A DNA stretch of 32,540 nt from Streptomyces afghaniensis 772 (GTDB taxonomy: Bacteria > Actinomycetota > Actinomycetes > Streptomycetales > Streptomycetaceae): NCBI GenBank assembly GCA_000415505.1, contig KE354104.1:1-32540 (forward strand), read 5' to 3'. The notes under the pieces are model-generated. The model saw only the letters and a program-made list of their open reading frames with translations. It had not been told where the DNA came from and ran no database searches. The position numbers and the translations under genes are program-made. Shown here piece after piece: positions 12,575-12,742 of the stretch (position 1 is the stretch's first letter; each line of letters starts with the position of its first letter).

Positions 12575-12742
12575 CTCCCTACGCCGGCATTACCCGGTAA
12601 CAGGTTCGGCGGTCGACGCAGCGGCTTCCGTCTGCCGACGTTCCGTGTGAAACATCACTCGACTTCGGTGATGTTTCATGTGAAACATCGCTGGGACGGA
12701 GGTCAGCGCCCTCTCAGCCCGGTGCTCCGAGCTCCCGCGTGT
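12575..12742 (-). ncRNA. TPP (THI-box) riboswitch in the thiC leader
   Basis: Read on the minus strand, the leader contains GGGAGCTCGGAGCACCGGGC, then CTGAGAG (the pyrimidine-sensing helix), and near its 3' end ACCTGTTACCGGGTAATGCC followed by GGCGTAGGGAG. These are the conserved THI elements in correct order. The GGGAG is also the thiC ribosome-binding site, which fits translational control. The variable P3 arm is extended (helix CCGUC/GACGG, plus-strand 12695-12699 with 12628-12632) and contains about 62 nt with two near-parS palindromes. The 5' boundary is approximate. Confidence 0.93.
12673..12686. promoter_or_regulatory. parS: parS-like site, one mismatch, inside the thiC riboswitch
   Basis: GTTTCATGTGAAAC differs from parS only at the seventh base (C to T), breaking the central CACGTG. 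As RNA, its arms with flanking bases form a GAUGUUUCA/UGAAACAUC hairpin. A more degenerate copy (three mismatches) lies at 12640-12653. Binding by ParB is plausible but weaker. Confidence 0.55.

Follow-up and report, generated by a model that had tools for sequence, protein, structure and literature searches.

The closest described counterparts of the locus analysed here are the chromosomal parS sites of Streptomyces (ParABS), which the available passages of one report count as 16 in S. venezuelae and 23 central ones in S. coelicolor (PMC4852455). Sharing of parS DNA with another function has also been described: the accessible portions of the respective papers report it for parS3 and parS4 of Pseudomonas aeruginosa (PMC5521831) and for Caulobacter, where parS lies inside essential or costly genes (PMC5815017), and the latter portions call the gain of sites in centromere regions an interesting biological question. 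A parS within a riboswitch was not found in the titles and passages of the open-access literature searched, and the word thiC was sought in, and absent from, the available main texts of PMC8743542, PMC12511625 and PMC13245405. The thiC leader of Streptomyces afghaniensis 772 resembles the Streptomyces parS sites in the features on which we base its identity, namely a palindrome (14–16 bp in parS) with few mismatches, origin-proximal clustering and a chromosomally encoded ParB. However, the sites in the P3 arm of this leader mostly carry one mismatch and lie inside a leader with a covarying RNA fold. DNA is shared with another function here as in P. aeruginosa and Caulobacter, but at thiC the shared function is RNA structure, as indicated by covariation. 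Compared to the TPP riboswitch family RF00059 (THI element), the locus agrees in its full-length model match and its place ahead of thiC, and differs in a P3 insert of 86 nt carrying two parS-like copies and in a score under the gathering score.

The window, i.e. the whole stretch of 32,540 nucleotides that was analysed, contains no TPP match at the gathering threshold. Its thiC leader covers the model from end to end with a score of 37.7 bits against a gathering score of 54.3 bits (Table 1). This shortfall was shared by the window leader and the 11 relatives scanned (37.7–48.1 bits), including three relatives with a short arm (47.1–48.1 bits), so automatic annotation may overlook the TPP riboswitch in thiC leaders of this kind. 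The match lies immediately 5' of the ThiC ORF, whose start (12566) falls inside the 3' end of the match. Because the match extends beyond the thiC start, the ribosome site is probably located within the 3' end of the aptamer. The Streptomyces sRNA Scr3920 likewise had a family match in the window, on the minus strand at 19116–19241 (139.8 bits).

Table 1 Features of the window; P3 arm coordinates were derived from leader L001, which corresponds to window positions 9285–14066.
Feature	Position	Strand	Evidence or remark
Nearest exact parS on the other side of the leader	4265..4278		Motif scan
thiC	10782..12566	-	PF01964 (E 1.6e-188) and PF13667
TPP riboswitch (RF00059) of thiC, long P3 arm	12559..12748	-	37.7 bits, E 3.5e-06, model 1–105
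P3 arm (alignment A2 columns 11–106)	12615..12710	-	Riboswitch match and covariation alignment
Basal P3 stem	12627..12700	-	12696–12700 with 12627–12631 (helix 2)
Copy 2, degenerate, GTTCCGTGTGAAAC	12640..12653		Pairs with copy 1 in the RNA; three mismatches to parS
11-bp upper stem, 5' strand	12668..12678	-	Pairs with 12648–12658 (helix 4, covarying)
Copy 1, parS-like, GTTTCATGTGAAAC	12673..12686		One mismatch from parS GTTTCACGTGAAAC; kept within one in relatives
9-bp lower stem, 5' strand	12682..12690	-	Pairs with 12636–12644 (helix 3)
parS-like site, one-mismatch variant kept in relatives	20309..20322		About 7.6 kb upstream of the leader
Inverted repeat (perfect) with parS (26812–26825) at its apex	26799..26838		Between convergent ORFs

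A first-pass annotation of this DNA had described a near-parS palindrome and a degenerate second copy in the P3 arm, and both were confirmed. Copy 2 differs from copy 1 at two positions and, counted by eye, from parS at three. Allowing up to three mismatches, copy 1 had 18 matches in the window (with palindromes scoring once per strand), compared with a mean of 0.60 in shuffled sequence, and seven further sites in the window lie within one mismatch of parS (six exact and one one-mismatch). Genome-wide, 22 exact and four one-mismatch parS were found. The latter occur on contigs C399, C496 and C549, each of which also holds exact parS. Besides that of copy 1, the one-mismatch sequences of this genome comprise GTTTCACGTGGAAC, with two occurrences (in either direction), and GTTTCACGGGAAAC; P3 arms contain these two variants as well. 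The variant GTTTCACGGGAAAC alters base 6 of one half-site, which the available text of PMC7383237 gives as one of two bases separating parS from the Noc site. According to passages of PMC7022226, Pseudomonas ParB binds both GTTCCAC and GTTTCAC half-sites, and S. coelicolor ParB is among those that do not bind isolated half-sites. The variant GTTTCACGTGGAAC (in reverse, GTTCCACGTGAAAC) at 20309–20322 was encountered again, by hand count, in 18 of the 20 genomes with a P3 site, at about 6–8 kb upstream of the leader. Most genomes without a P3 site have an exact parS 6–10 kb upstream of the leader.

A single TIGR00180 (ParB) match was present in the genome (206.3 bits) and resembles solved Spo0J/ParB structures. 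The neighbouring ORF looks like ParA, judging by eye from a KGGVGKTT stretch. In the region L274:1183–3530, the ParB ORF contains VSRET and the ParA-like ORF contains MFHVK and VSRET. These peptides are in-frame readings of parS, so parS sites probably lie inside the ParB and ParA-like genes themselves. The assembly consists of 1724 contigs, and the distance to dnaA was taken from relatives: thiC or its leader was located 47–64 kb from dnaA in 31/31, with or without the P3 site (differences calculated by hand). A closer position of thiC to the origin was rejected as the cause of parS in P3, as the distances overlapped (49.7–64.0 kb with the site versus 47.5–57.9 kb without). The idea that all TPP riboswitches carry parS was likewise rejected, as three other TPP matches were listed for this genome and none was on a contig with parS at up to two mismatches (150 of 317 TPP candidates scored; the thiC leader was not among the matches listed).

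We then determined how widely the arrangement occurs. Of 295 Streptomyces genomes, 294 had ThiC, and a pattern combining the TPP core with a parS-like site in P3 was found in 137/295 (134/288 of good quality), a lower bound given that the pattern skips some variants. The same pattern read backwards, as a control, gave 0. In a family-wide draw, 19/38 Streptomyces matched (rows counted by hand) against 0/112 genomes from 16 related genera, by which a wider spread in the family was rejected. A sample of 153 thiC leaders that were not picked for parS comprised the 30 best ThiC matches with loci, 23 loci and 100 places chosen by ThiC likeness (one leader being from Kitasatospora and at least three genomes being counted twice among the sampled leaders). 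Leader length was taken between the core motifs GGGCTGAGA and ACCTG, with 78 nt or more considered long, which gave 116 long and 37 shorter leaders. Almost every long arm (115/116; 7 exact, 108 one-mismatch) contained a 14-mer differing from parS at no more than one position, L202 being the sole exception. This agrees with the conservation in related thiC leaders on which, alongside ParB binding, the first-pass annotation had made its idea depend. The best 14-mer of the shorter leaders was 7–9 mismatches away in the 33 scanned, the other four of the 37 being too short to scan. None of the 149 leaders scanned had a best match of 2–6 mismatches. The distance between the core motifs was 36–72 nt in the 37 short leaders and 80–116 nt in the 115 with parS. 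Most P3 arms carry a one-mismatch site rather than exact parS; the 7 exact cases among the 116 long arms are joined by 10 arms picked for exact parS. On a tree of 173 leaders built from short flanks, presence of the site changed four times, whereas shuffled labels gave 34.7 changes on average. This indicates that parS in P3 is inherited, with few gains or losses, and also that the leaders are related by descent, so the counts are not independent and the shuffle controls overstate. As 38 of the 173 leaders have no P3 parS, the site is dispensable. Judged by these comparisons, the parS likeness in P3 is not due to chance. Two short-arm leaders, L226 and L230, have two and three exact parS, respectively, about 1.9 kb downstream of the leader, near the expected end of thiC.

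Two architectures of the arm were apparent. In the double-copy arms, which include the 115-nt class of the window, the copies form one nested hairpin; single-copy arms form one hairpin. The minimum-energy fold of the window leader includes the 11-bp pairing UGAAACAUCAC/GUGAUGUUUCA, and the leader folds more stably than its shuffles (z −3.1). The nested fold of the window arm had an energy of −31.9 kcal/mol against −22.3 kcal/mol for separate hairpins, and was the more stable in 58/58 arms of the class (mean −30.0 versus −19.2 kcal/mol). Among 55 arms, the nested pairing of copy 1 with copy 2 showed 39 doubly changed cells in six pairs (0/500 shuffles; at most seven in slid-partner controls), with one nested pair (43–73) unpaired in 21/55 arms. 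Separate hairpins showed a single doubly changed cell, located in the basal stem, and 499/500 shuffles had at least as many. These shuffles ignore relatedness, which overstates significance. The same proportion of cells (96.9%) pairs in both models, in the case of separate hairpins because palindromes must self-pair. The first-pass annotation had envisaged two competing hairpins. Both can form, and the 11-bp pairing is part of the minimum-energy fold, but in the window's class only the nested fold covaries, and separate hairpins were rejected as the kept fold, their formation being possible nonetheless. Copy 1 is exact in 0/58 arms of the 115-nt class, though other arms have exact sites; an exact palindrome would perhaps favour self-folding over the nested stem in this class.

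For the 27 single-copy arms (82 nt), two pairs flanking the 14 bp were doubly changed in seven and four arms and the five pairs inside were unchanged; all doubly changed arms were among 12 rows picked for parS, making the fixed core circular. Nineteen of the 22 unpicked single-copy arms shared one common flank, and the other three (L047, L149 and L179) had exact parS with other flanks. The structure available to single-copy relatives is a simple parS hairpin.

The two copies of the window's class differ in how strictly they are kept. Copy 1 was exactly one mismatch from parS in all 58 arms (55/55 of those unpicked), and copy 2 was one to five mismatches away. Parsimony assigned 25 changes to the 14 columns of copy 1 and 45 to those of copy 2 (p 0.02), or 12 versus 31 for the paired halves (p 0.005). 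When the covarying columns 45 and 71 were left out, a post hoc exclusion, one change remained in copy 1 against 21 in copy 2. The changes in copy 1 were confined to columns 42, 43, 45 and 38, leaving 10/14 columns unchanged on the tree, in comparison to approximately 10 changes per column in the apical loop. Pairing alone was simulated on the same tree in 1000 runs starting from exact parS with the centre held fixed. At the rate of copy 2, all 58 tips stayed within one mismatch in 0/1000 runs (on average 64% of tips did so), and at a lower rate fitted to both copies in 4/1000 (on average 79%); the 55 unpicked tips likewise gave 0 and 4 of 1000. Pairing binds both copies equally, yet copy 1 changes less, which indicates a sequence constraint beyond pairing. 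In arm L155, copy 1 has four mismatches and copy 2, GTTCCACGTGAAAC, has one; this arm keeps a near-parS, the copies having swapped roles. The first-pass annotation had suggested that the same letters act as a DNA motif and as part of an RNA stem, and had asked whether relatives keep the P3 palindrome by covariation or as a DNA motif. The alignment bears signs of both, as the nested pairing covaries and copy 1 stays one mismatch from parS, and interspecies comparison thus suggests conservation of one set of letters in two roles, as DNA site and as RNA stem.

We consider it probable (roughly 70%) that the distal P3 arm of the thiC riboswitch doubles as a real parS site, a dual use in a structurally tolerant place. 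As DNA, the P3 site would belong to the parS cluster near the origin, where ParB loading is to be expected. As RNA, the palindrome of single-copy species would fold into a simple hairpin capping P3, and in the window's class copy 1 would pair with copy 2 in one long nested hairpin. As the length of P3 is free beyond its core and palindromic DNA always yields an RNA hairpin, parS could settle there without damage to TPP sensing. The sequence, position, conservation and covariation of the site are observations, and ParB loading, the sensing of TPP and the lack of harm are inferred. Copy 1 would then be held by ParB recognition and copy 2 by pairing only. The likeliest mechanism is that the tolerant end of P3 houses a parS, either working or weak, and that the riboswitch functions normally.

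Base pairing might instead be the whole explanation, in that a stable P3 hairpin is kept as RNA and its parS likeness is incidental or inherited. Both the covariation of the window's class and the folding z-score of the leader are what this would predict, and at the lower rate a few pairing-only runs did keep all tips within one mismatch. However, none did so at the copy-2 rate, copy 1 changes less than copy 2 though pairing constrains both strands alike, and the absence of best matches at 2–6 mismatches among the scanned leaders also argues against it, making this explanation improbable. Equally improbable in our estimation is the view that P3 received an ancient copy of parS which is in the course of decay, its one-mismatch forms no longer binding ParB usefully. 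Although copy 1 of the 115-nt class is one mismatch off throughout and exact in none, decay should continue, yet most copy-1 columns are static next to a fast-changing apical loop, and other arms, both picked and unpicked, hold exact parS. The constraint on copy 1 could also come from another sequence-specific factor, DNA- or RNA-binding, as sequence comparison indicates a constraint beyond pairing without naming its cause. The constrained sequence is, however, parS or one mismatch away and sits within a parS cluster, and the other TPP matches listed for this genome have no such neighbour; we regard such a factor as very unlikely.

A further proposal concerns function rather than origin: ParB sliding over the thiC promoter and leader would alter thiC transcription, e.g. 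at sporulation, tying thiamine synthesis to segregation. Passages of PMC12511625 report that S. venezuelae ParB spreads up to 2.5–3 kb from parS, so thiC would fall inside the ParB domain, and P. aeruginosa ParB represses promoters beside parS3 and parS4 according to the accessible text of PMC5521831. Against this, relatives that have no P3 site retain both thiC and the riboswitch, so that the switch does not depend on coupling for its existence, and the other parS of the window are near other genes. We consider coupling unlikely.

A second parS of the window also coincides with a hairpin. The exact parS at 26812–26825 is flanked by an inverted repeat extending 13 bp per side, between a plus-strand ORF ending at 26790 and a minus-strand ORF ending at 26849. 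In relatives, the corresponding place was presumed from the order in which neighbouring sites follow one another, and 16/20 have a parS there whose flanking arms measure 5 bp or more. In the 16 distinct rows, window included, 16 bp (TGTTTCACGTGAAACA) were invariant and 12/12 lower pairs were doubly changed somewhere (55 cells; 0/500 shuffles), with the outermost pairs often unpaired. These rows were picked for parS and a hairpin, which makes the fixed core and the pairing percentage partly a matter of construction, but not the variety of the stems. The hairpin was absent from the output of the terminator scan, so that to call it a terminator would be no more than a guess based on its place. 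A survey of 40 genomes (60 stretches, 20 kb each) covered 191 parS-like sites, of which 33 were extended by perfect arms of 4 bp or more, where base composition at an assumed 70% GC predicts about 0.7%, many of the 33 being one place in different species. In the S. afghaniensis genome, 3 of the 25 parS examined (of 26) had such an extension, and the thiC site extends by 3. The thiC arm may thus exemplify a placement of parS at the tips of transcript hairpins. The earlier suggestion that parS can spread into structurally tolerant RNA loops gains support, as regards a parS sitting in a tolerant arm, from the two ranges of leader length and from the parS at 26812 capping a covarying hairpin.

The thiC arm is relevant to the acquisition of sites by bacterial centromere regions, as palindromic sites would fit the tips of hairpins, where a palindrome costs the RNA nothing. 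In a bolder form, Streptomyces centromeres would use transcript hairpins as landing places, with parS at the tips of covarying stems such as the thiC arm and the hairpin between convergent genes, and ParB at thiC would gate thiamine synthesis during sporulation, a proposal we hold to be unlikely. With one copy apparently kept as a motif and the other only as its pairing partner, the thiC arm offers a natural sequence that separates DNA constraint from RNA constraint, and it would allow a direct test of a segregation complex acting on a metabolic riboswitch.
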